A DNA stretch of 64,000 nucleotides from Branchiostoma floridae (lineage: Eukaryota > Chordata > Leptocardii > Amphioxiformes > Branchiostomatidae): the NCBI RefSeq assembly GCF_000003815.2, contig NC_049986.1, positions 22,794,906 to 22,858,905 on the forward strand, read 5' to 3'. Positions within the stretch are counted from its first letter, which is position 1; every line of letters starts with the position of its first letter. Position numbers and translations under genes: made by a program. Shown piece by piece: positions 2,395 through 28,019 of this stretch. Under the pieces are notes generated by a model, which was not told the DNA's origin, ran no database searches, and saw only the letters and a list, made by a program, of their open reading frames with translations.

Positions 2395-4783
2395 CTGAAA
2401 ATTAAATATTAAAGCGATAAGCAAACGTGATACCCGAAACCAAGACAACGAAGCACATTGATAAAATCGTTATCTCTGCCAACAAATATCACGCGACTCA
2501 AAGTAAGACATAAAGGACCTTTTAGTAAGGTCACCACGTAACACAATCACGAAGGTCATTTCAAGTGTGACCCGAAAGGCACTCAAATGTTACGGGTGAC
2601 ATACACAGCATCTCTTCTCCCTAAGTCATAAACATTATGATTCAGACCAGCTCAATTACTCATGTAATTGTAACGTGCGGTGTGGCTCCCCAAACACGGG
2701 ACTTACATTTAACGTCCTATCCGACGCTAGGTACTCATTTTAACCGGAGTGAAGTGAGGAAAGTTTGTTAAGTGCCTTTTCGGAAGACACAATATCGGTG
2801 ACAACGGCCGGACATGGGACCAAGCCAAACACAATGCCAATACGCCACTCGATCTCACAAAATCTCTATATTACCTGCAAAACGAGCAATGGCAATGACT
2901 AATGATAGTGCAAGACATTACATTTGCCTGGCATCGTGCTCCTGTCTCTTCAACTTGATCTCCCTCCTCTTGACAGGGTCCCTTGTTTTAGCCAGGTTCC
3001 GTCCCAGGCGCACACAGATGGTACACTTTGTGAAGAGACTACACTGTTAAGAAAAGAAAATTACCATTTAGTATTGTAGGCAAGTTGAAACTATGAAATC
3101 AAATCAAACGTCGCTTCAATACTGACTGAAAAAGATTTTCAAATCAAAATCTGCCTGTATCGAAATCGTACCGTTTTTATTGAAACGTGGGGGTAGAAGT
3201 ACTTCCACATATTCCGGAAAGACTCCTCACAACAGAACTTCTGTGAGCGCTCCTCGCATTCTTCTGCGTATTTGTTGTAGATGTCAACTTTTCGGGTGTT
3301 GTACGGAAGCCATATTTCATTCTTGTGTGGCATTTTGTCCCCATGACTTGCTACATAATACCCAAACCAGACGGAGGCGCTTACGCATTGAATGGATAAA
3401 GACCTTCCCCGCCTTAGTCCGTCCCACTCCAGCCCCAGCTTGAAATCCTTTAACTCCCGGTAGTATGCGTTTTTATTAATACCATAAACTCGACACCACG
3501 CTTCCCTGCACAATACAATGCCGTCAACCTTGAATTCGAAATACACTTTTTCCCTTCNNNNNNNNNNNNNNNNNNNNNNNNNNNNNNNNNNNNNNNNNNN
3601 NNNNNNNNNNNNNNNNNNNNNNNNNNNNNNNNNNNNNNNNNNNNNNNNNNNNNNNNNGTATAGCACGTAGTAGTAGTTTGCTCCTGCTCTTTACCTCCGA
3701 ATCTTTGCAACGTCTCGAAGTTTTAGGCCGAACTTGAGGCTCTGCGAAATATGAGCTGTCCAAATTTTCGGAATCGGTTGACTCCATGTCTGACGATGCA
3801 AAATCTTCGTTGGCTTCACTGTCACTGTGGGTTGACTGGCTACTAATGGACATGTCGTCGGCATCTAGATCTTGTGCCTGTTTTCGGGGGGACAGTATAA
3901 CGGGGGAGTATGGTGTATCAGGCTCGTTGAAATCAAACACATCGTTCAATGGGTTGCTTGTGTATGACTGAACTGGAGAGATTGAAGGCGAACGCGGTAA
4001 CGGCTGCAATGGGGACGATCCAGTAGTTGCAGGCGAGAGGGGCGACGGCCGCAGTGGAGACAGTACAGATGCTTCAGGCGAACGGGGCAACGGCTGCAAT
4101 GGGGATGATTCACTATATGCAGGCAAACAGGGAGACGACAACAATGGGGACGATCCAGTACTTGCAGGCGAACGGAGCAACGGCCGAAGTGGGGACGATT
4201 CAGCTGCTTCAGGCGAACGGAGCAACGGCCGAAGTGGGGACGATTCAGCTGCTTCTGGCGAACGGAGCAACGGCCGAAGTGGGGACGATTCAGCTGCTTC
4301 TGGCGAACGGAGCAACGGCCGAAGTGGGGACGATTCAGCTGCTTCTGGCGAACGGAGCAACGGCCGAAGTGGGGACGATTCAGCTGCTTCTGGCGAACGG
4401 AGCAACGGCCGAAGTGGGGACGATTCAGCTGCTTCAGGCGAACGGGGCGATGACCTCAGAGGGGACAATCCAGTGATTACAGGCGAACGGGACAGTGGCC
4501 GTAGTGGGAACGATTTGAAGTGTTCAGATGAAGTGTGGGAGACTTGTCCATCATGGTTTTGTGCATGCTTCTGATTCCCGCAGGACCTCAACCATGTTGA
4601 CACGTTGTACGGAATGGAACGGTTGGAGCGGACAGCATCTTTGACGTGGCCCGTTGGTAGATCACAGTTCGCCTTCTTGCTTGACGTGAAAGCGAGGCAG
4701 TTGCAAGCGCCCCCGCAGCCACATGTTTCCTTCTCGGCATGAAGCAGTGAATCATCCGTTACAGATTTGGAAGGGACATCATT
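1116..4783 (-). CDS. Transposase-like (DDE-type) multi-exon gene, 3' end outside the window
   Basis: Rebuilt exons, 5' to 3': 4783-3172 (interrupted by the N gap), 3043-2928, 2394-2315, 2150-2098, 1876-1727, 1575-1526, 1182-1116, all joined in frame. Visible blocks in order: Cys-rich CGCGGACNC, a Ser/Pro 15-residue repeat, CREAWCRVYGI, CSLFTKCTICVRL with a basic helix, YYQRREAARKEPEKYLSL, IVDGMDQAKTYLPHF, VSGVISHG and EYPHDSNLTLN, LYIQADNCYRENKNKF and FLDMLVHMKIF. From memory these match a widespread invertebrate family of DDE-transposase-like proteins (possibly Pfam DUF7869) whose acidic residues sit in VDG, DN and a later HTHED block; the last would lie left of position 1. All introns are GT-AG except the one after 2928 (GC-AG). 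The 5' end is uncertain: TTTCAG just before 4783 looks like an acceptor, so an upstream exon is probably missing. A GAG^GTAAAG donor just before the gap could end an exon there. It may be a domesticated or a mobile transposase; I see no terminal inverted repeats around it. Confidence 0.8.
3558..3657. other. Assembly gap (100 N)
   Basis: Exactly 100 N, the conventional size for a gap of unknown length. It interrupts the transposase-like gene between the Ser/Pro-rich half and the CREAWCRVYG block, so the frame across it cannot be checked. Confidence 0.99.
3986..4525 (-). repeat. 45-bp coding minisatellite in the transposase-like gene
   Basis: Twelve 45-bp units, each starting at an A/TGGCG-type word (3986, 4031, 4076, 4121, 4166 and so on). 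The six units at 4166-4435 are nearly identical; the outer ones diverge. On the coding strand each unit is 15 codons, consensus SPLRPLLRSPEAAES, a Ser/Pro-rich linker with repeated SP dipeptides. The unit is a multiple of three and stop-free in several frames, so copy number can change without a frameshift. Confidence 0.95.
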
Positions 4784-9109: not shown

Positions 9110-12100
9110 ACTAGAAAGGCCGACATTTGCTTGAGAGCAAATACAGCATATTTCAGCCATCTCCCCTCCTCATGTAACAATAGACTGTTCCAAAATCACT
9201 CATGCGCAAAAATGGAACACTTCTGCTTAAAATGACTTCTAACTACTAATCACACTTATGAGCAAAAATGAATCTTACAAAAACCCCTTCAAGAATGGAC
9301 TCAAAAAAATAGACGACTCCAAAAACACTTCCGCTAAGAAATGGAATTTGGAATCATCAGCCGTCCAAAACCATATTTGCAAAAAATCCCCCCTCTGTGC
9401 AAGAATCGACTCTTCCTGTTATACCCCTATGTAAAGTGGAGCGATCCAAAAATATATCAGCTAAAATAGTCAGCGAAGTCCACAAAATGAATTTTAAAAA
9501 AATACCCCCTTCGTCGAAGAATGGAATCTCCCAGCTCACCCTGTTTGAAATTGCACAATAGACAAGTCCAGAAATACTCACAGTACATGGCCTTTGTATA
9601 AGAAGCAACCCAGTCCAAAACTGAATTTTTAAAAAAGTCCCCCGTGCATGAATGGGCTCTTCCAGATAAAACAAGGCTTGCTGATTGGCTGCCGAATCCT
9701 CCTCATGTACAGTCTTCAGGTGGGGGTAAACTTCCATTTAACAAATGGAATTCGGAATCATCACCCATGTCCAAAACTGATTTTTTTTAAATCCCCCCCC
9801 CCCTATGTGCAAAAATGGACTGTCCCAGTAGTAGTCTTATGTCAAGTGGATCAGTGCGAAAACACTTCCGCTAAAAAAAACATTGGCATTATCACCAAAG
9901 TCTAAAAGTAAATTTTAAAATACACCCCCTGTCCAACAATGGACTCTTCCAGCAAAATAAGCTCGCTCATTGGCTGGCCATTAATTGGATTTTCCTTGTC
10001 CACCAACCACCTGGATGTCTATGGACTAGGTAGGTAGGTAGATAATTGGATGTACCTGGCACACCTGAGGCCCTGACACACCAGAATGACCTAGAGGTCA
10101 TTGACCTCGGCACTCCAACCTTACCTATCCTAAACTCTCCCACAAAAACCTCCTTACGGAGCCATTTTGAGGTGATTTATACTACATATTATACATGGAT
10201 CCTTTGAATAAGTATCTAGGGCACCTCTGTGCCAAATTTCAGGTCATTTGGATGTAATACCATGGTACAGGGGGCCAAAATATACAGTCTTGGTCCAAAA
10301 GTTGCAATAAAACCTCAATAAAATCCTTTAAGGAGCAGATATGAAAAAAATTAAAAAAACACATTTGGGTATTGGCCCACTCTACCCTTGTGCCAAATTT
10401 CAAGTCATTTGGTTCAGAAACGGCGGAGATGAATCGCTTTGAAAATTTGACAGGAGAAAGAAAGAAAGAAAGAAACATTACGAATACAATATATTTCACC
10501 ATACCTATGGTATGGCTGAAATATAATTACTACTGATACGTCTGGATACCAGGCTATGCCGTAGGGGGTGGGTCGGGTCGGTAACTGGAGACATACTACT
10601 GTTTTTGGTGGACTTTGGGTTAGGTTTCTAGCAATGAAATCCTTGCAAACGCTACGCTACGCTACTTCAGATATTGCTATCGAGGCTATGTTTGACTTTG
10701 AGTGCCAAAGTACTTCGGTTTTCTAGATAGAAATTGATACAAACACTTACATGCCGGGTCGACGGTGTCACGTCATCGGTCCTTTTTCTTTTCCGTGTTC
10801 CTCCCAGCAGCGGGATAGTAATCTCAACTGACCCACCGTTTGCAATCTGGCAGAAATGCCGAACCTGTAATCAAAGTACGAAAATCTTACTACCAGTTCA
10901 ACATTCTAAAGGGTAAAGTTGAACGGTAAACAAAGTTGCTTACGGAAGTATGCGGGCAAAAACACTTTGTAACAAAATTGCACTGTTTTTATTATACAGC
11001 TGTTTCAAGACACATATTCTGTCTCGAGTGTAATTGAGATCTCCAAAACATACGTATAGCGCCTTCGGAACATAGGGATTGAACCCAAAATGCAGAGCGC
11101 TTCCTCAAGCCTGGACCTGCTTGTGTCCTATAGATCACGTTGATTTGATTCAGTCATCTATGGGCACTGGAATACTGACGCGAACGTGCGAAAAAAAGGT
11201 GCCCCCCCCCCCCCCCAACAGTTGCCTCATTATTCAATCTGCGGGATTTCTACAAAAGACTGAACCAAATCAGGGCTTAGAGGACTATATAGCTCAGGAA
11301 GGCACGGCAGTAATTTGAAATGTCTACTGGAAAGAGAAGCTGCCAGAAAACAGGCCCGGGCCTACACTTGCCAGTTCCACGACTCAAGCATCAAAATGCA
11401 CAGATACACACACATGTGCACATAAGTTTTTCTTCCAGGGGCCCTAGAGCTGAACTGACCCGTGTAGGCCCTGGAACCTGGGAACCAGTATAGTTATATT
11501 TCAGCCATACCATAGGTATGGTGAAATATATTGTATTCGTAATGTTTCTTTCTTTCTTTCTTTCTCCTGTCAAATCTTCAAATCGAATCAACTCCGCCGT
11601 TTTTAAACCGATTGACTTGAAATTTGGCACAAAGGTAGAGTAAGCCAATACCCTCAGGTGTTTTTTTCTTTTTTTTCATATCTGCCTTTAAAATGATTTT
11701 ATTGAGTTTTTTGTCAATTTTTATGTATATTTTGGGCTCCTGTACCCTGGTATTACAGCCGAATGACATGAAATTTGGTACAGAGTTGCCCTGATCATAT
11801 GCCCACCCAGATTTAATAACAGTTTTTGCATACGATACAACAAAATGCTTAATTTTGCGATTTTTGGCCATTTTTTGACAAAAAAAGCACATTTTTGCCT
11901 CCTGTACCCTCGTTTTACAACCGAATGACCTGAAATTTGGTATAAAAGTGCCCTTCAATTATGTGCGCATGAATTCAATAACAGTTTTCCATACAGTACA
12001 ACGTAATGCTAAATATTGCGATTTTATGGCCGTTTTGGACAAAAATTGGACATTTTTGGCTCCTGTTCCCTCGTTTTACAACCAAATGACCCGAAATTCG

Positions 12101-12292
12101 GTAAAGGGGTGCTCTAGATATTTATCCAAATGACTCATGTATAATTTTTGGCATGGAACACTTTAAAATGATATATTTGGGAATTTTTTGGGTCATTTTC
12201 CAATGGCCAACGACCTCAAGGCCTATTGTTGCATGAGGGAGATGGCTGAAATATGCTGTATTTGGTCTCAAGCAAATGTCGGCCTTTCTAGT
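9110..12292. mobile_element. 3.2 kb nested inverted-repeat element, non-coding
   Basis: Outer arms of about 70 bp: 9110-9183 (starting ACTAGAAAGGCCGAC) and its reverse complement at 12223-12292. A second inverted pair lies inside: 10225-10525 and 11494-11775, each ending in a GAAA/TTTC microsatellite and a palindrome CATACCTATGGTATGG. The left part (9190-9990) is a degenerate repeat of about 120-160 bp with CAAAAATGGACT words; the right part is a tandem 160-bp array. No protein of useful length was found. It is a large non-autonomous element or a nest of several. Confidence 0.8.
11690..12130. repeat. Tandem repeat of about 160 bp, three copies
   Basis: The phrase CCTGTACCCTCGTTTTACA and the following ACCGAATGACCTGAAATTTGG recur near 11741, 11902 and 12062, a period of 160-161 bp. 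The inverted arm at 10225-10525 carries one more copy on the other strand. Confidence 0.85.
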
Positions 12293-12469
12293 TACTTGAC
12301 TAAAGCCGTCTCCACGTTATAAGTAATAGGCTTTTTTTAAACACACAACGTAATTTTTAAGGTCCACCAGTCCTTGGCTAGGGTCGGCAGAGAGTGTTCG
12401 GGAGTCAGGGCAGGTCTTGCCGAGGACCGTGGATAAGCAGTTCGGGAGGCGTCATGTAGGGAGAGAGAG

Positions 12470-13202
12470 CTAGGTCGGAAACTCCGTCCCTGCATGACAC
12501 CTCTCCGAGTAACTGTATCTCCGAGTGGTCCTCGAGAAGAACAGATTCTCAGCCGTTCCATTTAATATAAAATGAGTCCCAAGCTGAAACTTGTTTTGAA
12601 ACAAAATCCAACTCTCTTTTTTGTACTCGTTACATAAGAGAACAACTTACCTCTTTGCTGTTCTTGAAGAGCTTGAACGCTGTCGTCGGAATCCCTGTGC
12701 TATAGGCTATTTGTTCATAGATGCGCTCGACAGATAGTTCTGTTAGCCGGATAGGGAAAACTGGTCCAGTGGGAGGAATTACATAGAAGATCGTCCCTTC
12801 ACGTAACCGAGTACAGTACTGGGAGGAACTCGGTAGAGTCAGGAAAAAAACTACTTCCATACAACGAGAAACGAAACGCCAGGTACAAAGCAGCATCTCC
12901 CAAAACCTGTCTGTTAGGTGAATGATAGTCCTTGTGATGTCGAGAAGTGTGTAGAATGCAGCGGTGATGTCCTCTCCGTACACGAAAAATCCACGAGGTA
13001 ACCCGGGGTCGTCTGGTGGCGGTTGGTCCTCATAACCCCCGCCGCCTGAACTGAACGAAACGAATGGTGACCCTAGAGGGATGAACGCTGTTGCATTCGC
13101 CTTACTTCCTGTGGTCAGAGTATGTTCTTTAACCTGGCTGGATAAAGCAGCGGCACTACACACACATAGACAGAACCACAAAAGAGACAGAGTGTACGCC
13201 AT
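12470..13202 (-). CDS. Predicted secreted protein with C-terminal ubiquitin-like fold
   Basis: Two exons, 13202-12651 (184 codons) and 12583-12470 (37 codons plus TAG), joined in phase 0 at donor GAG^GTAAGT and acceptor GTTTCAG; total 221 aa. Residues 1-20 are a clear signal peptide (hydrophobic run LSLLWFCLCVCSAAAL). Residues 60-70 are Pro/Asp-rich. Residues 136 to about 203 read as a ubiquitin-like beta-grasp: TIFYVIPPTGPVFPIRL (strands 1-2), SVERIYEQIAYSTGIP (helix plus the GIP turn), AFKLFKNSKEL and ILNGTAENLFF (strands 3-5). There is no C-terminal GlyGly, so conjugation is unlikely. The splice junction falls inside the domain, and reading on through the intron would destroy it, which supports the model. 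A TTTTCAG just upstream of the ATG suggests a 5' UTR intron. No specific family recognised. Confidence 0.65.
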
Positions 13203-14638: not shown

Positions 14639-15367
14639 ATGGGATCGAATACGCTTTGTACAGACCGCTGGTGGTTTGAAGTAAGAAAAGGCGACATTTA
14701 CGCGTATGCCTCAGGAGCTGACGATGTTGGCGGAGATGTCATCAACGTATCGAAGACGAAAAAGCCGGGGATTGTGTATGTAAGTTGATTCATTATTTTC
14801 AAAATTACACTGTTATTCATTCGTAGTACGAGATTAAATAATTGCCGTCTGTCGGGTAATAATTGAAGAGCTCTACCGGACCCATGCACGGGTGGATCTG
14901 AGCATACTTTACAATAGTCTGCGTGCCAGACCCCGGGCTCATCTCAGCGGGGCCTGCTGTAGAATTTCCTCGGGGGTATGTTGACCCTAGAGCCGAGGAA
15001 TTGGCTTCTGTAGGCCATGGAAACAGTATGGCATCCAGGTTAGTCGATAGTAAACTTGGCAAGGGATAGAATTAATGTAAGAGGATATGTATGATCTAGG
15101 ATTGGTTAACTTCCATATTTACTAGATATTGATGAGTCACTGCCTTATCTTTTGTTATAGATCGAGGCAGGAGGTGACCCTGGGGTAGACTTCTGCGCCG
15201 TAGTGGCGAAATTCTACGTGGATCAGAACTACTTCTGCAAGAAGTTCCATGGACTAAAGACGGCTGCCGAGTTTGTCAAGAAGTGGGATGACCTGGCAAG
15301 CAAGAATTCCCATTCTGGGCATATATGGAAGACACGCCTAGTAAGGAAGCCAAGAAAACTACTAGCG
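14639..15367 (+). CDS. Exons 1-2 of the ParB/BAH-like gene
   Basis: Exon 1 starts at an ATG in AACATGG context and ends at TAT^GTAAGT; exon 2 (15161-15367) runs from TTTGTTATAG to GCG^GTAGGT. Both are phase 0. The encoded 116 residues contain a repeated aromatic/acidic pattern (GDIYAYASGADD, GGDPGVDFCAVVAKFYVD) and a helix FHGLKTAAEFVKKWDDL. I do not recognise the fold. They could belong to a separate short gene, but the phase match to exon 3 favours one gene. Confidence 0.65.
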
Positions 15368-18300
15368 GTAGGTTAACAGTTACATTTGATTTAATAATAG
15401 ATTACATTTTAGACTAGAAATCAATCTCAATGGTCGGATTAGGTCCTAGGTGTGTTTTATCGGAGCCTGTCGGATATTGGGCCTTTTTTCTGCAGCCTAT
15501 CTTTCATGGGAGCCCCTGGGAGCCAGCCGAGATCGGGCAGCTAGGACAGTTTATTCGGTGGCCCCCCTCTCGTTCTCTCCCCCCGCGCAGCTTACGCTGC
15601 ACGGCCGCGGCCTTCGGTCGCGTAATTGTGCGCGCCCACCCCCCTTTGCAAATTTGGGGATCCGCTAGTGGTAGCGATAACTCCTTCGGGCTTATAAACT
15701 CCCCGGTGAGATCGGTGGGCCTGGCTGGCTCCCAGGGTAGCTCCCAGGGTGACGCCGCAAAAATTCCCAGGCGCCCTGCATCACAGATTTCGGAAAATCA
15801 CAGGGTCATCAATGAGTATGAAATCACAAGACAAAACAAACTATCATTGTGGGTATTTTTACGCGGGCCACACAATTTGCGACTGAGTTCGGACTTCGGA
15901 CTCTTGTTAATCAACAGATTTGAAAACCCCCCAAATGTCGTTAGAGGAGAGAATTATCACTGTTATATACCTTAGGAGGAGGGAATTAAAAGAATGTGTA
16001 CGATGTAAAGTTGTGACGGAATATTTACCTGGCTTTCGGAACATAAGGATTTCGGAACATACTGGGCGGTCACCGGTACGGTCGTAAAAGTATAGAATCG
16101 TAAAAATCCCCCGGCGTGAGCTAATCGACCTCGGCGGGTGTGCAAATCCACTCTCACTGTGTCTTCTTCTACTCTCCAAGCAGAGGTTAGGTTCCGGCTG
16201 TTTTTTTAACGTTTTTTTAGTCGTTTTTATCGGGCTTTTTTTTGTCATCTTTTTTGCTGTGTCCGGCACAGCAAAAAAAAAAATGACAAAATAGACAGCC
16301 CGATAAAAACGACTAAAAAAACGTTAAAAAAACAGCCGGAGCCTTACCTCTGCTTGGAGAGTAGTCTTCTTTGCCATAGTCTGACGGTGAAACCAGACAC
16401 CGTACTGTTTTGATGACGTCATCACAACATTCCCACATGGCCTTGCCAACATCTGTTCGTTAGCTCGTTACATATGCATTTGGTAGGTCGTAAGTTCGAT
16501 CCCCGGCCGAGTCATAGCAAAGACTCTAAAAATTGTACATGCTGCTTTCTCTGCTTAGCACTCAGCATCCGGGAAANNNNNNNNNNNNNNNNNNNNNNNN
16601 NNNNNNNNNNNNNNNNNNNNNNNNNNNNNNNNNNNNNNNNNNNNNNNNNNNNNNNNNNNNNNNNNNNNNNNNNNNNNNNNNNNNNNNNNNNNNNNNNNNN
16701 NNNNNNNNNNNNNNNNNNNNNNTTTGATAGTATATTTATATCAAGGCTGGTTTTTTAACCTCCTTGATTTATATATAGCACTCACTCATACCCGCCACAT
16801 AGGCAAACAAATACACACGAGGGCACACAAATACACACGCGAACACAGACACGCACCGTAGATCTTGAGAGATGGAAGGTGAAACACAGAACGCACAGAA
16901 CTCTATATACCAAATTGTAGTTTACACTATTAGTTGTCAGCCACAGGAAACGATCAAGCCCATTAAAAGTGAATTTCAGCTTACTTACCGGGTTGGTGTT
17001 AATTCCTCACATTACACGGTTGAGGTAGCAGAGCACAGTGTGCCCACGACCCCTTGTGTCGGATGGTGTCGTTGTATGGCCCAAATTCTTGAAGAATAGG
17101 TAGAAACTATAAATTGCATAACACCATTTCTCGGATTTTCTAGCTATATACTTAGAAATTATCGTGCGACCACCTCGGACACGAACGTGCGACCGGCTTT
17201 TTAGTGGGTGGAGAAGCGTTTCCCGCCAGTTACTGCTGAGTTTAGATTTGCGCGCAAGAGGTCACTGCCGGTCACGCACACACCGCAATGGAATCCTACC
17301 GCGCGGGTGTACTGGGATACTTCCTGACCGCGTGACTAAAGACAACAGTCTCTAGACAATGACAGCCACACGACTATCTAACTGTGTTACTCTTGTAGAT
17401 CCAAAGCGGTTTAGAGGTTTCCAGACAATGCAATACTAACAAGCAAGGGACAAGCTTCCAGTCATTTGTTGGTTTGTTTAAGGGTAACAAATAAAACTAA
17501 TTTTTCTTTCAGTTTTTTTAACAATGTTTTCTTAGTCCGGAAAGTCGGTCTTGCTCAAATCTGTACAAAATTACAATCAAAAAGAACATCATCGTAAAGT
17601 ATACAATATCATTATGCCATAGATTTCTTTGTAAAACGCTGGTGTCAACCTCGTGTACCAAACTCCTGTGCCTCTTCAGCGTTTTCGTCTAAGAATGGGA
17701 AGGAGCTATTCGACGTCACGGCCTCTACATCCCAGCAGAAGGGGAAACATCGAAGTGACGTCACGGCCTCTACAACCCAGCAGATGGGGAAACATCGAGG
17801 TGACGTCACGCCCACTACAACCCAGCAGAAGGGGAAACATCGAGGTGACGTCACGCTCACTACAACCCAGCAGAAGGGAAGTGATCGAGATGGCGTCACG
17901 CCCTCTACTACCCAGCAGAAGGGGAAACATCGAGGTGACGTCACGGCCTCCACATCCCAGCAGAAGGGAGGAGGTCGAGGTGACGTCACGGCCTCTACAT
18001 CCCAGCAGAAGGGGAAACATCGAGGTGACGTCACGTCCTCTACAACCCAGCAGAAGGGGAAACATCGAGGTGACGTCACGGCCTCCACATCCCAGCAGAA
18101 GGGAGGAGGTCGAGGTGACGTCACGCCCTCTACAACCCAGCAGAAGGGGAAACATCGAGGTGACGTCACGTCCTCTACAACCCAGCAGAAGGGGAAACAT
18201 CGAGGTGACGTCACGGCCTCCACATCCCAGCAGAAGGGAGGAGGTCGAGGTGACGTCACGGCCTCTACATCCCAGCAGAAGGGAGGAGGTCGAGGTGACG

Positions 18301-21300
18301 TCACGCCCTCTACATCCCAGCAGAAGGGAAGTGATCGAGGTGACGTCACGCCCACTACAACCCAGCAGAAGGGGAAACATCGAGGTGACGTCACGCCCAC
18401 TACAACCCAGCGGAAGGGAAGTGATCGAGATGGCGTCACGCCCTCTACTACCCAGCAGAAGGGAAGTGATCGAGGTGACGTCACGGCCTCCACATCCCAG
18501 CAGAAGTCTACAAACAAGCGAGGTGACCTGACGGCACAGAAGACTACCGCAGAAGAGGAGGCTATGGCGGCTATAAAGCGTCACTACATGGGTAAGTTAA
18601 TGCGCCTCCATTTGCGGCATTTCTCACTCTTCTTCCCTTGTTGGTTGGACTGCTTTCCCACAACCCTTTGGTTTGATTTGATTTGATTTATTTATTCGGC
18701 TGCATAGTAACACATACAGCAAGGGCTACCCAACCAGCCTAAGGCTATTATAAAGGGCCCTTGAACATGTACAGCACTTCATAAGCTCCGCCTACATACG
18801 GGTATCAAAAACTAAAATGGAACAGTACCCCCATATTTAAACTGACACCAAAGACAGGCGCGAATTAACATGACTCCCCCAAAACACTTGATTAAATGTA
18901 AAAGTCTACTGAAATGGACGCTAGAATTACATTCCATATGTAAATTCCATATGTTGAATTGTTCCTGACAACTGTGAAACCGGTATGAAGGTTTGGTAGA
19001 TCAGTTCATGTTAAGCAACAGAGCTTTAAAGCTGCAAATATTGCACTTTACAGGGGCATTCGACATCCCAATAAAAAGACTGGTAGAGCCAGCATGGAAG
19101 CGGCTGGTGAGAGCGGCGGACCCCCAACACGTATCGAACCTCAAACAACGGTTCATCGCGTCATCTGGACAGATGACGACTGTCCTCATCGGGAACATCC
19201 CTGAGATGACTACGGAACATTACGACAGGACAAGGGTTGACAGGTACAGGTACGAGGTCATCGGGGGCAATCATACCAGGATTGCGCTGCAGGAGATACT
19301 GCGTGACACTCCCGAAAAACTGGACGTCGCAAGTGTACACATGCATATTTACTGCGGCCTGCCCGATGACCTCGCCAAACGGGTTGGGATGGCCCATAAT
19401 AATGTCATGAATTATTCAAAGCCAGAAACCACCCTTGACCAGCTGATCAGCATGAGAGCCAGTCTGTACAACAAGGCTGGCTTCACAAGGGCCGGTGACA
19501 TGTCATCGGTGGAGCCACCAGCCGAGAAGAAAACCAAGGACGCGTGGAAGGAAGGACTGGCTGTCATGCTGCGCTGTGATGGAGACGAAGAAACTAAGCC
19601 GGTGAGTTTGATATCTTTAAGATTATCTATGAAACAAACTTAAGTTAATGTACTTTGAGAAAATACCAATTTTCCCCCGTATCCCCCCCTCCTCCATCAT
19701 CATTTGTATTTTCTTGCCTGTTCTTCTATCAAACGAATTGGTCACACCCATTATTGATTCCTGGCCCATATCCAGTCCACCTCAAGTGTCGTTATACCCG
19801 CCTCACATTAGGCGCGATTCGATCGGAAGACTAGTTTACGAGCTCTAAATGACATTTTCGTGAGTAAGACGTCCGGTGTTCTCGCGATTTTTAGGGATCG
19901 TCGGCAATTTTCAGGAATCTTACGATGGTCGCGGTGCAGCGAAACATGTTCTTAACATAAGCGACAAGTCGCAGGAGATCTCGGAGATCGCAGAGCTCGT
20001 TACCGAGTCGCAGATCGTGCGTGCAAATCGTGCGTACCTCGCAAGGGTATCGGTCAATAGTCTTGCGTCAATCTAACGATTGAAGACCGATAGGCGAGCA
20101 CAGACATAGTTATTAATCATCGAACGCAAATCGGATGGCGAACGCCCGTAAGTCGGGCGACGTTCACCCGACTTCCGATTGTTTACAAAAATTGATTTTT
20201 TTTTGGGAAAGTGAGGGTAATTCTAACATTGTGGCCCCTGTGGCAGTATGTAGGCTGGCTTTGTGACACAATTTCCTTTCTTGTGTCATTTCTATTATGC
20301 CCCCGTATTCCATTCATTGGTTAAAAAGATTCCGACAACAAAATACGCAACATTTATTGATCTCTTGCCTTTTTTGAGGAACGTTTTGTGTTCCCTTGTC
20401 CGCGTGCAAGAGGTCATGGGGGGTTCATTATCATAGATTTATTCACCGTCGATCGCACGAGGCTCGCTTATATGTGAGGGAAACAGATTTTGGGCGAAAA
20501 ATACGCAAGACCATCTTAAGATCTTAAAATCAACCGACCTTCCTGCGATCGCGAAGTACGTCCGAAGATCGTATATAATGTGAGGCGGGTATTAAGCCCC
20601 GTTTACAAATCAATAATTCAGCTCGGCCGACTTGTCAGCGAGCTCCAAATGGGCATTTTCGGCCGGAGTATGACCGGCGTTTGGGCGATTACGCGGGCTT
20701 CGGGCGACTTTTAACAGCTCGTCCGTTGGGATTTAAACCTCCATGTGATGTCAGTTGTGCACCAAAAAAGCAGGAAAGACAATGACTGAACTTTCCGGAG
20801 GGAAACACCGAGCCCCGTCCAATTTGTGACGGTGCAGATTATTTGATAAAAAGTAAAGCCGATGCTCGGGCGATGTTGATTTTTGCCGAGCTCTGACCGA
20901 TCTACAAATTCGGCCGGGGTCCGCATGAATTGTAAACGGGGCTTAAAGCCGTGCTTACAATTCATGCGGACGCCGGCCGAATTTGTAGCTCGGTCAGAGC
21001 TCGCCGAATTTCAACATCGGCCGAGCACCGGCTGTATTTTGTCGCTGAAAATCTGCCCCTTTACAAATGAACGGAGCCCGTCCGACGTCCGTCCAATACT
21101 ACTGATTATAATTGTTTAATGAGATTGTACTATATCTTGAACAAGGACGAATTCAGAGCTGACTAACCTTGTAAAAAGCAAACATTGTATTAACTTTAAT
21201 TTCTGAGTTGCGGAAAATATGTAGGATATGAGCGGAGTGGACGGGCACACTGAAAACAATAATATTAACAGGAATGTTATGATACACCAATCCAAAAACT

Positions 21301-24300
21301 ACCACAAGAGCCAAAAAGTGAACAGACCAGTCTGATTCAGCATAATACAATAATTTTGACAAAGTAGGAATCGGGCGAACCTCGGTCGAAGGCTGGCAAA
21401 GGCCGTCCGAGTTTCAGCCTGGAAGCCTTCATACATGAAGAATATATGATCTCACACATCCAAACCAATAGCAAAAAATAAATGGGAAGTACTGTCTTGG
21501 TGTCCAATTGCCTTTCATTATTAAAGGTACGCAGCATTCTTAGAAAATTTTATACAGTAGTCTTTATTATCTTATATTACGGACCAAACTGTCTACTAAA
21601 GATGAAAGCCAAAAACAAAAGCATATGTTCAACACAGGTGTAAAATCGATTAGGTGACAGTTAAAATTCTGCCGGAGCCCTTCCAAGCTCCCACCGACAG
21701 TAGCACGACGCCCGCCCGAAGCGCACCCAACTTGTCAATGCCGGACGGAATATCGTCCGGTTATTGTAGGGAACCCGAGCGAGGCTGGCGCGACGCCGAA
21801 GAGTTCGGGCAAACTCCGACCGAAAAAAAGAGTCTAAAACCGTCGGGTTGCCGTCCGAGTATTGGCCAAGTCTTGGCCATTGCCTGGAAAAGCTCCACTC
21901 GAGCTACAGGCAACCCATTGACGAGCTCTCCGAGCTCAACAATCGCCGCCGAGGCCTCGCTAAAATTAAGCGCAGCTGCAAGTGCCCCGCAAACGTCGAC
22001 CGAGCTGCTAAAAATCGTCCGAAGCCCGCGTAATCGCCTAAACGCCGGTCATACTCCGCCCGAAAATGCTGAATTCTTGATTTGTAAACGGGGCTTTACA
22101 GCCTCAGACATCGGAGTTTGTGTTACACGGACACGGTTCTTACGATAGTTTAAACAGATTGTTATTGTTATTGGGTGGGCAGCCAGTTGCTGAATTGCAA
22201 GTAGCTTACAATAGGCGGGGCTAAATCGCAAGGGTCTGGAGTGAGCTGCCATTCGGCGCCACTCAGGTGACCTCAATACGACAGTAATTGCCCCAGGTGC
22301 GGCCAAGGGACTGTATGTTTTGAACCACTCACACCTCACCATCGCACGTGTGGTAGGTTCTTAAATGTGCCTGGGGTATCTACTGATGCCATGCAATTAC
22401 ACGTCCTACAGGACATGGCGCATTGGTATTTAATGCTAATATTCTATCTTATCAACAGCGTAAACAACTCAACAATAGGCACAGACGTTCCATCAGTCTG
22501 GCTGAAATGCCGTGCGCAGTCTGGAACGGCATCACAGAGTTTGCCAAGAAGTGGGAGGAGAGGCGAATCCTAGGGCAAAAGAAGACAGAGTTAAAACCAA
22601 CTCATTTGGGCTTCCTCGATGATGATGACGAGACTGCAAAGCAGGTGTCAACGTTACAAGGACTAAACAACGGCGAACTGGATTACAAAGAAGTCATGCA
22701 AACTTCGGTACGTCTTCTTTTTACAAGCTAGGGCTCACACACATATATGCTATTGGTTTCTGTATACATCACACTTTCACAGTTGCTCAAACCTCCCGAA
22801 GTTATTATTTTGAAGAAGATTGACAAAGTAATTCTTCGCAACATAGAATGTAGCAATGCATCCAACACAAGATTGTTCTCTGTATTTAAAGTTTCACATT
22901 ACATGTATCTGGCGTGGACACGTAACGAGCGTTATCAATGGTATTTAGTAGACAACTTTGTATTGTGGTGCATTGAAAGTAGCAAAATACACTGCATTAA
23001 ATAACACGATGAAAACCTTCCAGAAGGTATTTCATGCCAACCAGTGGTTGGATTATCGCAAAATGTTGAGATGGATCACATCGCGCGCCTGCAACAAAAC
23101 CTATTCTGGATTATCCACTCCGATCAGTTTGATAGACATGCTAATGGATTATCGTATTATATCGTACAGGAAGCAAACAAATCAGAGAAAAAGAAAAACA
23201 AGCAGAAGATGAAAGCGGCCGCACTCCAGAAAGATGGTGACGGAGGAGCTGAGGAGTTGGATCCGGAGGGTGCCAAGAACGATAAGAACGACGGAGGAGA
23301 TGATGAGTCCGATCTAGGGGGTCTGGAGCCGGAGGGTGCCAAGAAAGACAACGACGACAGGGGAGATGAGGATGCCGATGTCGATCTGCAGACTGAGAAC
23401 AGAAACCTACTGGCGGTGAGTTCTCTTTTTCACAATCAGAATGGTTTAAAGGTTTAATTACATAAATAGGGTCGTGGGGTACTGCGCAGTGGCTGATACC
23501 TAGCCATACAAAATATGGGTAATTATTAGTGAGCGATTAGAGTTGGTTTACCTATCAGTTAAGTAGATATTATGTTCATGGGCGTCGGCCATAAAGTATG
23601 TTGTGTCCTTTATTATGATTGTTAGGAAGTCGCAAGTCTGCGGACAAAGACCAAGAGGCTAAGGGACGAAAAAACAGCGGTATCAGACATCTAAGTTTTG
23701 GAGGAATTGTTATAGTTTGCCAATTTTTATCACTGATACATTTCAAGATGCCCCGAATCAAAAGTATTCATGTTTTTGGTGTTATGATTGCTTACCTCTT
23801 GTTTCATTGGCATTGCTAAAATGAGGCTCTTCGTGGGATTTCCCACCTTTTTGAGTACTTAAGATATACCTGGTTATAAAAATGCTTATATCATGAACAA
23901 GAACGTGCTGTCGGCCAACCATATGTGAACGAAAGTAATGGTTAATAACATTCCATGGTTTCTTTTTGACAGAATGAAGATGGCACACTTGACAAAATAC
24001 GGACAAGGTAAGAATCTACAAAGATATTTCTTACTATAATAATTCAAGAAAATCATTTGAATTTCGTCTGAAACACCATGCAGTGAATCACCTTTCAGAA
24101 CCTTTTTGGAAGTTTCTGTAAAAGCCAGCCTCACATGTAAAGGATACTCGGTTTTCCACTTTCACAAGCAAGAAACATATCTACACCTACAGTGACTGTT
24201 TAATATTATTTAAAAAAGACAACGTTTGCTTTATCGAAAATAGAAGACATTGCCTGTCGGGAAAAAGACGTGGGTCGGCTATGCATCAACTTGTTTTATT

Positions 24301-25235
24301 ACTGGATGGAATCATAAGAATAATAATTATAATACTGTTTATTTTGACAGCAACAAGAGGAAAAGCAGCGAGCAGGAACCTCCGTCGGTATGTTTAACTA
24401 ATGTTCAGTACGAAGACAAAGACAGTAGTATTATGTGATTGTTAAAGAATCTTCAATTTCATTTACTTGATACGAAATGTGTACTGGATGTGATACATTT
24501 CGTTGTGATCATGTGAAGCATGCAAAATGTAACAATGACACAAGTCAATCATATGAAGTAATACAAACATTCATACAATCACGGTGCCAAAATGAAATAA
24601 TAATGACCAATTAAGTTTGTGATCCACGCATTTTAACCAGTCTCTCTTTGGCACAGGCGCCCGTTAGGAAGTCACAACGGAGCGCAGCTCACGGGGTGAG
24701 TGCTACTTTATTGAATTATCTTGCAGAAGCTGCATGCCATTAATTTGCACTGAACTTGTGAAGAAACAGCCATTATCACTCACCTTTTTTTGTGTGAATT
24801 AGAAATGTTTCACAGTTATAAGATAGGTCAATTAGGTGGCATTATTTAGAACGTTTCTTAACTATTTCTAATTACGTGTCCACCGCTGCGAAAATTCGAC
24901 TTCAGCTTACACACATCTTTGGGCCATTTTTTTTACAGGAGAGTCAGTACAAGGCTGACGACTTCGTTGTTGTACCTGGGAACGTGAACGACGGGGACGA
25001 CATTGAGGCGTGGTTTGGGCGGGTTGTGTCTGTCAATCTTGCCCAAAAGAAGCTCCGGCTCGTGTGGTATGTGCCAGACAACCAAACTGGCATATACGAA
25101 CGGGAAAAGAGCAACGGCCAGTCGCTCCCCGCGACCACCTGCGCCTTTCGTGATGTAGCCACAACCGTGGTGTTTGACAAGGACATGACCTTGCCCGTGG
25201 AGGAATGGGTGAAGGCAACAAATGCATGCCGTTAG
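14639..25235 (+). CDS. ParB/sulfiredoxin-like and BAH-like chimeric protein, 12 exons, 931 aa
   Basis: Exons: 14639-14779, 15161-15367, 17694-18591, 19054-19601, 22459-22707, 22783-22827, 23170-23415, 23626-23679, 23973-24007, 24351-24387, 24657-24695, 24939-25235; 2796 nt with consistent phases and a TAG stop. All donors are GT, all acceptors AG. Residues 1-116 (WWFEVRKGDIYAYASG, CKKFHGLKTAAEFVKKW) are unrecognised. Residues 117 to about 390 are a 15-residue repeat. Residues 416-598 hold a ParB/Srx-like domain with GGNHTR at 486-491. Exons 5-8 give a charged stretch ending in a likely coiled coil (LQTENRNLLAEVASLRTK). Exons 9-11 are short and basic. Residues 834-931 resemble a BAH/Tudor-like domain. 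A role in nucleic-acid or chromatin binding is an inference. Uncertain points: exon 3 could start at 17680 with a shifted exon 2 donor; exon 7 could extend left to about 23018 in the same frame; exon 6 is supported only by phase. AATAAA at 25595 may be its poly(A) signal. Confidence 0.75.
15480..15790. mobile_element. MITE in intron 2
   Basis: Arms around GGGAGCCAGCCGAGATCGG (about 15526) are the reverse complement of GATCGG...GGCTGGCTCCCAGGG at 15711-15740, with TTTATTCGG/CTTATAAAC just inside. GC-rich middle, no coding capacity. Boundaries approximate. Confidence 0.6.
16170..16363. mobile_element. TACTCTCC-type MITE, copy 2: near-perfect hairpin
   Basis: The 194-bp unit runs from TACTCTCCAAGCAGAGGTTA to TACCTCTGCTTGGAGAGTA and is palindromic almost to its centre (GGCACAGC loop near 16266). 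The few mismatches imply a recent insertion. It lies in intron 2, so the nuclear transcript would contain a stem of about 90 bp. TA at both ends suggests a TA target site. Confidence 0.95.
16487..16577 (+). repeat. tRNA-derived SINE fragment
   Basis: AAGTTCGATCCCCGG matches a Pol III B box; the following GTACATGCTGCTTTCTCTGC and ACTCAGCATC are shared with the copy at 54755-54890. It is cut by the gap at 16578. Confidence 0.75.
16578..16722. other. Assembly gap (145 N)
   Basis: 145 N, probably a sized gap, directly after the SINE fragment in intron 2. Confidence 0.99.
17694..18591 (+). CDS. Exon 3: minisatellite-encoded domain
   Basis: Starts at AAG^AATGGG (alternative CAG^CG at 17680) and ends ATGG^GTAAGT. 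It encodes NGKELFDVTASTSQQKG followed by about 18 copies of a 15-residue unit such as KHRGDVTPTTTQQKG, then AEEEAMAAIKRHYM, which shows the true frame. The repeat is hydrophilic, Gln/Thr/Lys-rich and probably disordered. All three plus frames and two minus frames are also open, so the frame was chosen from the non-repetitive ends and the splice phases. Confidence 0.75.
17712..18520 (+). repeat. 45-bp minisatellite with TGACGTCA in most units
   Basis: Eighteen 45-bp units, two main variants (GGGGAAACATCGAGG and GGGAGGAGGTCGAGG types). TGACGTCA, the CRE/ATF palindrome, begins at 17756, 17801, 17846, 17936, 17981, 18026, 18071, 18116, 18161, 18206, 18251, 18296, 18341, 18386 and 18476; two units (17891, 18431) read TGGCGTCA. 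High uniformity indicates recent homogenisation. Confidence 0.97.
18665..18790 (-). mobile_element. 3' end of a non-LTR retrotransposon
   Basis: On the minus strand it reads TTGGGTAGCCCTTGCTGTATG, then GCCGAATAAATAAATC followed by a short AAATC tail. A poly(A)-like signal plus a short tandem tail is typical of a 5'-truncated non-LTR copy. It lies in intron 3. Confidence 0.6.
19054..19601 (+). CDS. Exon 4: ParB/sulfiredoxin-like domain
   Basis: Acceptor TTTACAG, donor CCG^GTGAGT. Sequence starts GAFDIPIKRLVEPAW, followed by a helix (DPQHVSNLKQRFIA), a strand (TTVLIGNIP) and RYEVIGGNHTRIALQEIL. The last block matches the ParB/Srx signature G-x-HR-x-x-A, here with Thr inserted before Arg (GNHTR). 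The domain is followed by VHMHIYCGLPDDLAKRVGMAHN and the helical LDQLISMRASLYNKAG. In bacteria such folds bind DNA/CTP or act as nucleases; similar proteins exist in some invertebrates, function unknown to me. Confidence 0.75.
19794..20592. mobile_element. 799-bp element with 17-bp perfect terminal inverted repeats
   Basis: ATACCCGCCTCACATTA at 19794 is exactly mirrored by TAATGTGAGGCGGGTAT at 20576-20592. Interior non-coding and CG-rich. Lies in intron 4. Confidence 0.85.
20592..20946. mobile_element. MITE with TTAAGCCCCGTTTACAA inverted ends
   Basis: TTAAGCCCCGTTTACAA at 20592 is mirrored by TTGTAAACGGGGCTTAA at 20930-20946. It abuts the preceding element. Its left half (GCGAGCTCCAAATGGGCATTTTC) resembles that element's left half (ACGAGCTCTAAATGACATTTTC), so the two families look related. 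Confidence 0.85.
20947..22098. mobile_element. Third, larger or disrupted member of the same inverted-repeat group
   Basis: The right end GATTTGTAAACGGGGCTTTA (22078) is the same terminus; the left end AAAGCCGTGCTTACAATTC (20946) is a degraded mirror. Inside are CG-rich stretches (20965-21100 and 21650-22080) with shared words such as CGGCCGA around AT-rich sequence, perhaps an insertion. Boundaries uncertain. Confidence 0.5.
22160..22345. repeat. Dispersed copy of the 34.6-36.2 kb repeat
   Basis: Shares AGCTTACAATAGGCGGGGC, GGTCTGGAGTGAGCTGCCATT and TTTGAACCACTC with the three tandem copies at 34.6-36.2 kb. It lies at the end of intron 4. Confidence 0.8.
24939..25235 (+). CDS. Exon 12: C-terminal BAH/Tudor-like domain
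   Basis: Acceptor TTTTTTTTACAG, TAG stop at 25233-25235. YKADDFVVVPGNVNDGDD, then AWFGRVVSVNLAQKKLRLVW and YVPDNQTGIYE follow the beta-barrel pattern of BAH or Tudor-like modules (polar entry strand, GRV strand, VxWY strand). The last part (FRDVATTVVFDKDM) would be the final strand. Assignment by pattern only. Confidence 0.6.
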   Translation, partial: ESQYKADDFVVVPGNVNDGDDIEAWFGRVVSVNLAQKKLRLVWYVPDNQTGIYEREKSNGQSLPATTCAFRDVATTVVFDKDMTLPVEEWVKATNACR

Positions 25236-25742: not shown

Positions 25743-26372
25743 CTTAACTGATACCTCTATTTGATTATCATTATTGCATCGTCATCATTTTCTATGTATT
25801 GCGTTACTTTATCATTGATTGTTAACTCATACCATTAATTAATTGTTTATGTTAATAGTATCGTTATCATTCTTTGTACTACTTTACTTTATTAGTTAAC
25901 GAGTTAACCACTCCGTGGTTAGCAAGCGAAAGTCGTGAGCCAGCGGTCATTACGGAGGATGATACCCAGGCTACGAGTACTCATCATAATCAAGAACTTT
26001 TGTTTAAACATCGTTCAAACGAGGAGGGATGAGCATAAGCTTCGCAAACCATGGAAACTCTGAGTCAGTGTACCTGGAACGGGTTTTGTCCCCTGTAGTG
26101 ATCGTATAATTGACATATATTGTGTAGTTGTTTTATTATTTTCAATTTTGATATGTTGACGATATGTTTTCCCTTTCCTGAATCCGTTATGCAGAAGGAA
26201 AAACTCATGTGTACGCTCTCCATGTGTACTTTGTGTAAACAATAACTATAGAAATAAAATCTAGTAGGTTTTCACTTCAACTGATGTGAATCATTGCACT
26301 TACTACCGTTCTTATACTTAGAACTCTTAGCCCCAAGTTAAGTCACCTGACCCATATGTTCATATTTCTTCA
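25743..26372. other. Region without a gene
   Basis: No exon seen. A GATACCCAGGCTAC word near 25961 is the end of a TAGCCTGG-type element. Confidence 0.5.
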
Positions 26373-26736
26373 CTTGAGTAACATGCCTCAGATTCTCAGG
26401 CTGGAGTCACATGACTCTTAAAACCAAGCTTGAGTCATGTGACTCTAAATACAAGACTTGAGTCATGTGACTCTAAATACCAGGCTGGAGTCGTGTGACT
26501 CTGAATACCAGGCTTGAGTCATATGACTCAGATTCCAAGGCTGGAGTCATATGACTCTTAAAACCAAGCTTGAGTCATATGACTCTTGAAACCAAGCTTG
26601 AGTCATGTGACTCTGAAGACAAGGCTTGAGTCATGTGACTCTGACGACAAGGCTTGAGTCATATGACTCTAAATCCCATAGAACGAGTCATATGCCTCAG
26701 ATTCCCAAGCTTGAGTCACATGACTCAAATCTTCCC
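26373..26736. repeat. 28-bp palindromic minisatellite with AP-1-like sites
   Basis: Thirteen 28-bp units from 26373, consensus CTTGAGTCATGTGACTCTAA followed by an 8-base spacer. Each unit holds an inverted pair TGAGTCA/TGACTC around CATATG or CATGTG. Degenerate units extend to 26345 and to about 26810. Confidence 0.93.
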
Positions 26737-26810
26737 CTTCAAACTGAGTAAATCAAGCCAACACGGCTGTATAATTCGATCCTTGCATGAGTCAGATGAC
26801 TCAATACGTC

Positions 26811-28019
26811 GTGAACGGATGTCTTCAATTTCCAGATAACTAGCCAAGACGGCTGCATTTTAGTTAAATATGAAGCTTCATTTTTCCATTTCCAAGTTTA
26901 AAAAAAGGGAATAAAATAGATTTTCCCTTATTATTTTGGATTCTGTTCTGTATGGTTTGTATTGCGGGCTGTCTTCCTGATCCCCCCCCCCCCTGTCCAA
27001 TGACAAAAAAATGTCTTCCCATTCTTCCCAATAATCTAAAATGGAGAATCTACGTACGTAGAAATTTACATGAATGGTTCAACATGTCTTCATGCGCTTC
27101 TTACTCCAAGAAAAGTAATTCTGGTACTCTTCGTCCGTGCTGCCTCAGTCAGTGCATTTGCTTTGCCAGGTTATTCCCCTCACACACATCCGAACCGCTC
27201 CACTTGCTCCTGAGCGCGGCATGACGTACTTACTCTTAAGTGGCTGGTCCTGTGCAGGGTTTCATCCTGTAAATAATAATCCCTTCTTTCAGCCGTACCT
27301 CCGGAGAATTAAGTAATGCATACCTTTGCACAATAGAGTACTCTCGATCCGTAATAGGTGTTCTAAGATTAGATACGCATCAAAGCATCTTCAAGTAACT
27401 GTGCGTTCGCTACAGATTGGTGTATTGAACGACGTAGTATCTGCGTCATAATGACGCCAATAGCCGGAAACGTGGGAGCCTCTGATGCTGAAGAAACAAA
27501 ATATAGATGTCTCTGATCTATCTAAGCGCTTCTGGGTATGAAACTGAGTGATTTGTTGGAAATTGCATATCAGACGTACAAAGAAAACAATCAGACGAAG
27601 TGGTGAGGTGTCAGCAATCCGCGTCAATCGAATCATTCAGACAGTTTCCCAGCGCATATACCGCTGAGCTTTTACTGCCTACTTGATACATATCTTCACC
27701 TTTTTGTGCCATTCATTGATTCAGGCGTTAGACGCTATCAATTACCGCTTAAGTGTAAAAGCAAATGAGAAAATCAATCGGTGAAACTAATAGAAAGGTT
27801 CAACCGCGATGATATCGTATCATATCAAATAAAAAGGTGTAGAACCGCTGGCTCGACCGTGTTGTAAAGTGTGCTTTTATCATGTATCTTATGGTGTTAA
27901 GGGAAGTTTTACGACATTGGAAGAGGCTGTAACTGTCTTGCGTGGTTGTTTATGTCCTAAGGCATTTGTACATTAGCAGTGTATTATCGAGATGTTGAAT
28001 TATTTAGATAAGACCGTGC
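26811..28019. other. Region without a gene
   Basis: No convincing exon or repeat; a poly-C run is at about 26982. Confidence 0.5.

Follow-up and report, generated by a model that had tools for sequence, protein, structure and literature searches.

A spliced gene at positions 14639-25235 of a 64,000-nucleotide stretch of the Branchiostoma floridae genome (C8:22794906-22858905 on contig NC_049986.1; hereafter the window, whose positions are given as bare numbers) is a transposon gene, not an ordinary animal gene, and its sequence encodes a well supported ParB-like domain. The gene lies in a 33,572-bp element bounded by terminal inverted repeats (TIRs), which probably belongs to a family of giant TIR DNA transposons, 29-42 kb long and with a 4-bp target duplication, with the ParB gene among its three conserved genes. 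Ends, copies, exact 4-bp duplications and a gene order common to the elements were all observed, and the gene is therefore assigned to a transposon. A first-pass annotation of the window had called it an animal gene; the ends, copies and target duplications now assign it to a large TIR element. The assembly that contains the window comprises 513.4 Mb in 431 contigs.

Boundaries and copies of the element

The element occupies C8:22788281-22821852; its right part fills window positions 1-26947 and its left 6.6 kb precedes the window. The same terminus, AACAGAATCCAAAATAATAAGGGAAAAT, is found at C8:22788281 on the plus strand and at C8:22821852 on the minus strand. The right TIR (26181-26947, minus strand, ~770 bp) contains a 28-bp tandem array (26400-26726) and is 95.6% identical to the opposite end of a copy on C19 (16416821-16417581). 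Immediately outside it stands the 4-bp target site duplication CTGT (26948-26951), with its partner at C8:22788277-22788280. The copy on C19 is 29,198 bp long, has inverted ends that are alike at 87.8% over 801 columns, and is flanked on both sides by TCAG. Window positions 1768-26953 align piecewise to C19:16410816-16388378 at 94-100% identity, mostly 98-100%, and this likeness includes introns and intergenic DNA. Because the copies are mostly 98-100% identical and the target duplications exact, the elements have by the look of it been mobile recently. In the window, scans for Rfam families and tRNAs found nothing.

A family with two types of terminus

A genome search with the 28-nt terminus, allowing up to 3 mismatches, gave 75 matches and none in a reversed control. 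These form 25 convergent pairs with a median length of 15.8 kb, and of the 26 cases of neighbours less than 70 kb apart, 25 converge (mean 6.5 and maximum 15 in 5000 strand shuffles). A second, related terminus has 39 matches (again none in the control) and 13 convergent pairs under 70 kb. It bounds the ParB copies at C4:28686252-28721754 (35.5 kb) and C16:3534424-3576595 (42.2 kb), which align with each other at 88-99%. Target duplications were examined in 16 of the 38 convergent pairs of both types, and 11 of the 16 were exact. One set gave seven exact cases in 11 (C16 outer ATTG, C17 ATAC, C228 GTAT, C15 CCAA, C9 TAAC, C9 TGAA and C4 TTCT; not exact on C5, C11, C10 and C16 inner, the last reading CTAG vs CTAC). 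The other gave four in five (CTGT for the window element, TCAG on C19, ATGT on C7 and GTAT at C8:24238384; not exact at C8:3163590).

At C16:3519922-3578932, an apparently first-type element with the ATTG duplication has the second-type element 3534424-3576595 inserted in it. A 12.9-kb element at C8:24238384-24251316, with first-type ends like those of the window element and a GTAT duplication, is one of the pairs that contain neither a ParB nor a DUF7869 match; it has inverted arms of more than 2 kb at ~97% identity and no recognisable gene, and is likely non-autonomous. Finally, a second-type terminus at C10:2187030 (2 mismatches) lies 3 kb from minus-strand DUF7869 matches (C10:2190288-2195224), which is the layout of the window element's left end, and this locus is possibly a further gene-bearing element.

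The ParB-like domain

Exon 4 of the gene (19054-19601, plus strand) carries the motif GGNHTR. In the PHROGs collection it matches two ParB-like partition families, phrog_723 (E 3.1e-4) and phrog_6392 (E 5.4e-3), followed by an unnamed family at 0.23. We aligned six own-genome paralogues (the window copy, C4, C16, C14 and two from C6, those of C4 and C16 being near-identical), and each of the two families matches three of the six, with a best E of 7.3e-5. Comparison by hhalign of the six-paralogue profile with two phage ParB-like proteins gave a probability of 93.9, an E of 1.5e-7 and a score of 51.5 over 110 columns, with GGNHTR falling on AGNHTL. In the controls, 30 column shuffles reached at most 0.66 in probability and 17.2 in score, and the reversed profile a probability of 0.14. 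The profiles and the controlled comparison thus support the ParB-like call of the first-pass annotation. The strands and helices of the predicted exon 4 structure, a weak model (pLDDT 53.4), follow one another as E-H-E-H-E-H-E-H and then helices, an order that presumably fits the ParB/Srx core.

Other results speak against this assignment: a whole-genome search with ParB_N (PF02195) gave no match at E≤0.001, and the AlphaFold model of exon 4 is poor (pTM 0.50). The exon 4 sequence has no match in Pfam, NCBIfam or the PDB sequences, and a PDB sequence search with the six-paralogue profile found nothing at E≤5. The GERR-type CTP box, the mark of the ParB CTPase clamp, was not found; by eye the sequence reads GGNHTR.

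The phage proteins that align with exon 4 (phrog_723 and phrog_6392; Mycobacterium phage Quesadilla gp1 and Gordonia phage Sour gp1) are 204-210 aa long and encoded by one uninterrupted gene, whereas the lancelet domain is part of a spliced gene, with a minisatellite before it and a linker after it. A GNHR-type motif is common to the exon 4 family and the DndB / ParB-Srx superfamily; sulfiredoxin has a cysteine at this motif, while exon 4 has none.

The first-pass annotation had imagined a captured prokaryotic or mobile-element domain. The mobile element is there, but a prokaryotic source was not shown: a pattern scan of viral contigs with exon 4 gave no match, a scan of the same contigs with the six-paralogue alignment gave 59 pattern matches and none confirmed, one scan of genome contigs gave 7 pattern matches without a confirmed relative, and the best E values were only 0.3 in phage tblastn and 1 in a plasmid search with the C14 paralogue. 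A close prokaryotic or viral source was rejected, as none of these scans and searches yielded a confirmed relative.

Gene model

In our reconstruction the ParB gene comprises 10 exons with 2697 nt in all, encoding 898 aa and a stop, with GT-AG introns and agreeing phases throughout. A single-frame chain across 14639-25235 thus stands, but with fewer parts than the 12 exons, 2796 nt and 931 aa previously claimed. The scan for the missing 33 aa found one fitting candidate exon (EVASLRTKTKRLRDEKTA, 23626-23679, plus strand, 18 aa), while a second was not found by its criteria; by eye, a longer coiled-coil-like stretch occurs on C4 where this possible exon would sit.

All exons lie on the plus strand. 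Exons 1 (14639-14779, 47 aa) and 2 (15161-15367, 69 aa) encode an unassigned domain. Exon 3 (17694-18591) contains the coding minisatellite that had been announced, an array at 17712-18506 with a 45-bp unit (17.7 copies, 87% matches), and then EEEAMAAIKRHYM; the C4 counterpart reads ELERDAIKRHLVG. The acceptor of exon 3 is weak (gcgttttcgtctaag, exon from 17694) and was chosen because the phase must be kept. Exon 4 coincides exactly with residues 416-598 of the earlier version. Exon 5 (22459-22707) is a conserved segment, CAVWNGITEFAKKWEERRIL, outside known families, exon 6 (23170-23415) a linker rich in lysine and acidic residues, and exons 7-9 (23973-24007, 24351-24387 and 24657-24695) a short basic linker. 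Exon 10 (24939-25235, stop at 25233-25235) completes the protein with an SH3-like barrel.

The C4 paralogue is 41% identical in exon 4, 41% in exon 5 and 34% in exon 10, and keeps the order of linker end, ParB-like domain, exon 5 segment, coiled coil (by eye) and barrel, which supports exons 4 to 10 being one gene. The putative splicing of exons 1-2 onto exon 3 is not confirmed: exons 1 and 2 had no tblastn match at E≤0.01 within the C4 slices, and the one exon 2 relative seen (C16:3530270-3530392, 47.6% over 42 aa) has a stop inside the alignment. The Pfam scan covered exons 1, 2, 3, 4, 5 and 10 and left out exons 6-9. Exons 1, 4 and 10 matched no family at E≤1, exons 2 and 5 gave chance-level matches only (E 0.12 and 0.17), and repetitive exon 3 matched bactofilin and glutenin, both under their cut-offs. 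NCBIfam returned nothing for exons 2, 4, 5 and 10.

The C-terminal barrel

In the predicted structures, exon 10 is an SH3-like barrel. The best of five models had a pLDDT of 89.5 and a pTM of 0.80, the other four a pLDDT of 46.8-53.1. A Foldseek search yielded 764 matches with E≤10, not one of them at E≤0.001. The matches listed (50 of the 764) include LSM14, MazF, ribosomal proteins, NusG/Spt5, BAH and Tudor; among them, BAH structures have E 0.08-0.29 and TMq 0.50-0.52 (0.52 for 6vil and 5znr), and Tudor domains have TMt 0.66 (PHF1) and 0.60-0.63 (SMN). The barrel of the proposed BAH-like domain is thus retained, but not its identity as BAH: the folds of LSM, Tudor and BAH fit it to much the same degree, and exon 10 has no Pfam match.

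The partner genes

The DUF7869 gene runs on the minus strand from 4882 to 1405 (stretches 4679-4735, 3770-3946, 3142-3555, 2900-3046, 2232-2408, 1700-1876 and 1405-1668) and continues left beyond the window to C8:22790325-22790648. PF25273 was found in three of the five stretches scanned (E 1.1e-15, 3.2e-14 and 4.7e-5, the last under the cut-off), and several stretches are conserved on C4. We infer that this transposase-like protein is the transposase; its acidic motifs, SLIVDG and QADNC among them, suggest the DDE type. In its upstream frame, positions 3986-4515 (minus strand) hold an in-frame 45-bp minisatellite, which has the period of the ParB-gene array and another sequence.

Between the DUF7869 and ParB genes lies a membrane/ubiquitin-like gene (10751-13202, minus strand; exons 12651-13202 and 10751-10864, in splice context). 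It opens with a hydrophobic, signal-peptide-like start (by eye), and the next exon completes a ubiquitin-like stretch that ends in IPLLGG-TRKRKR. The protein has no Pfam match, and its best PDB match is a ubiquitin-like/eS31 fusion (E 0.065). It is 35% identical to a C16 copy and, across 75 aa, also 35% identical to its C4 counterpart, where the gene order is unchanged.

On C4 the DUF7869, membrane/ubiquitin-like and ParB genes are ordered and oriented relative to one another as in the window element, and match positions give the same three-gene order on C16. DUF7869 has at least 70 listed matches in the genome, including those inside the C8, C4 and C16 elements. Copies of the ParB gene with all of exons 4, 5 and 10 number four (C8, C19, C4 and C16), all in TIR-bounded elements. 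Among first-type pairs, three of 25 hold a ParB match (C8, C16 and C19), that of C16 being inside the nested second-type element.

Searched against its own genome, the exon 4 peptide gave 19 matches: itself, C19 (100%), C4 and C16 (41%), C14 (34%), and shorter or broken pieces. C6, mainly at 19.5-28 Mb, holds 12 of these 19 and 29 of the 70 listed DUF7869 matches, several with stops, and is perhaps a graveyard region. The distant paralogue at C14:14164503-14164886 reads ILDGNHRLEAQ; a coding minisatellite of its own, with NQEEESNDSHS units, precedes it within a single open frame of 491 aa. The 20 kb read around it hold no terminus match and no barrel, C14 has no DUF7869 match among those listed, and this copy may be a host gene or belong to another element.

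Weighing the evidence

Two near-identical 25-kb stretches, introns included, would also be expected of an ordinary host gene copied between chromosomes by segmental duplication. This we regard as very improbable, since the stretches end at inverted repeats with differing 4-bp duplications, which largely refute it, a transposase-like gene lies inside them, and the same ends bound many other places; the host-gene reading was rejected on the grounds of the TIRs and target duplications that delimit the copies. It is scarcely more credible that exon 4 encodes an unrelated domain in which GGNHTR occurs by chance. The missing database matches and the poor model would agree with this, but two ParB-like families each match half of the six paralogues (two of them near-identical), the hhalign score stands far above its shuffles (51.5 vs ≤17.2), and one paralogue reads ILDGNHRLEA. 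Given a ParB-like domain, an active nuclease or nickase that helps the transposase in excision or strand processing appears unlikely. The GNHR-type motif is common to ParB-like nuclease and DndB-like proteins, and Pfam DndB matches one of the six paralogues (E 0.0048), the window's own exon not being matched; no catalytic residues are assignable, however, the positions invariant in all six rows being G71, H73, A77, H114, N115 and D128.

We tentatively propose, as our first choice, that the ParB-like protein could be a DNA-binding accessory factor tethering the transposition complex to chromatin. Its ParB-like domain would bind DNA of the element, perhaps at the long TIRs with their repeats; dimers would form through the coiled coil, and the C-terminal barrel would hold chromatin. 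In this way the ends of an excised 30-40 kb element would stay in synapsis, attached to host chromatin until it reinserts. Possibly, though, the gene is instead passenger cargo dispensable for movement, or a factor that counters silencing by the host. Cargo is common in giant elements, and 22 of the 25 first-type end pairs are without the ParB gene; set against this is its unchanged position and orientation next to the same pair of genes in both element types. Identity between these types is 34-41% in the ParB exons, 35% in the neighbouring gene, and 46% and, over 32 aa, 66% in the DUF7869 gene. A constant place in elements whose proteins are only 34-66% identical argues that the ParB gene has been kept for a long time.

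A number of results count against a conserved three-gene family and a maintained ParB gene. The same 22 first-type pairs have no DUF7869 match either, and thus most members lack the ParB gene; those without it may be non-autonomous. No exact 4-bp duplication was found in five of the 16 pairs examined. C19 has no DUF7869 match among those listed, the gene's upstream stretches alone being found (the slices hold 5956 N), and its exon 2 carries one 2-nt and one 1-nt deletion. Between C4 and C16, exon 4 has 8 nonsynonymous and 5 synonymous changes (pN 0.020, pS 0.042, pN/pS ~0.5), so that constraint, judged from these sequences, is weak at best. In favour of the transposon-gene reading, differences between C8 and C19 amount to 1 in 1793 aligned exon bases and 29 in 6272 intron bases (Fisher one-sided P 0.005); this contrast was picked after the data were seen and does not cover exon 3 or unaligned bases.

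Known systems and significance

Sola, Ginger and Chapaev have inverted ends, a 4-bp target duplication and a transposase-like gene in common with the lancelet elements, which differ from them in their 29-42 kb length, three genes, DUF7869 protein and ParB-like gene. Polinton/Maverick elements are likewise large, with long TIRs and animal hosts, but make a 6-bp duplication, unlike the 4 bp found here. None of the papers searched mentions DUF7869. The abstract openings searched, which mostly do not extend to subscription journals and are no proof of absence, described no animal transposon with a ParB-like gene.

The best documented giant DNA transposons are those of fungi (Starship), and the elements described here would add an animal family of 29-42 kb with a ParB-like protein kept in two diverged types. 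By analogy with plasmid partition, one may speculate, with considerable doubt, that animal giant transposons have their own partition-like system, in which a ParB-type protein with a chromatin-reading barrel and a membrane or ubiquitin-like partner would act together, the former loading on long repeat-bearing ends and tethering the element of 30-40 kb to host chromatin once it is excised. Annotation can mistake such transposon genes for chimeric host genes, which calls for caution, and the family raises the question of why a eukaryotic transposon needs a ParB-type factor.

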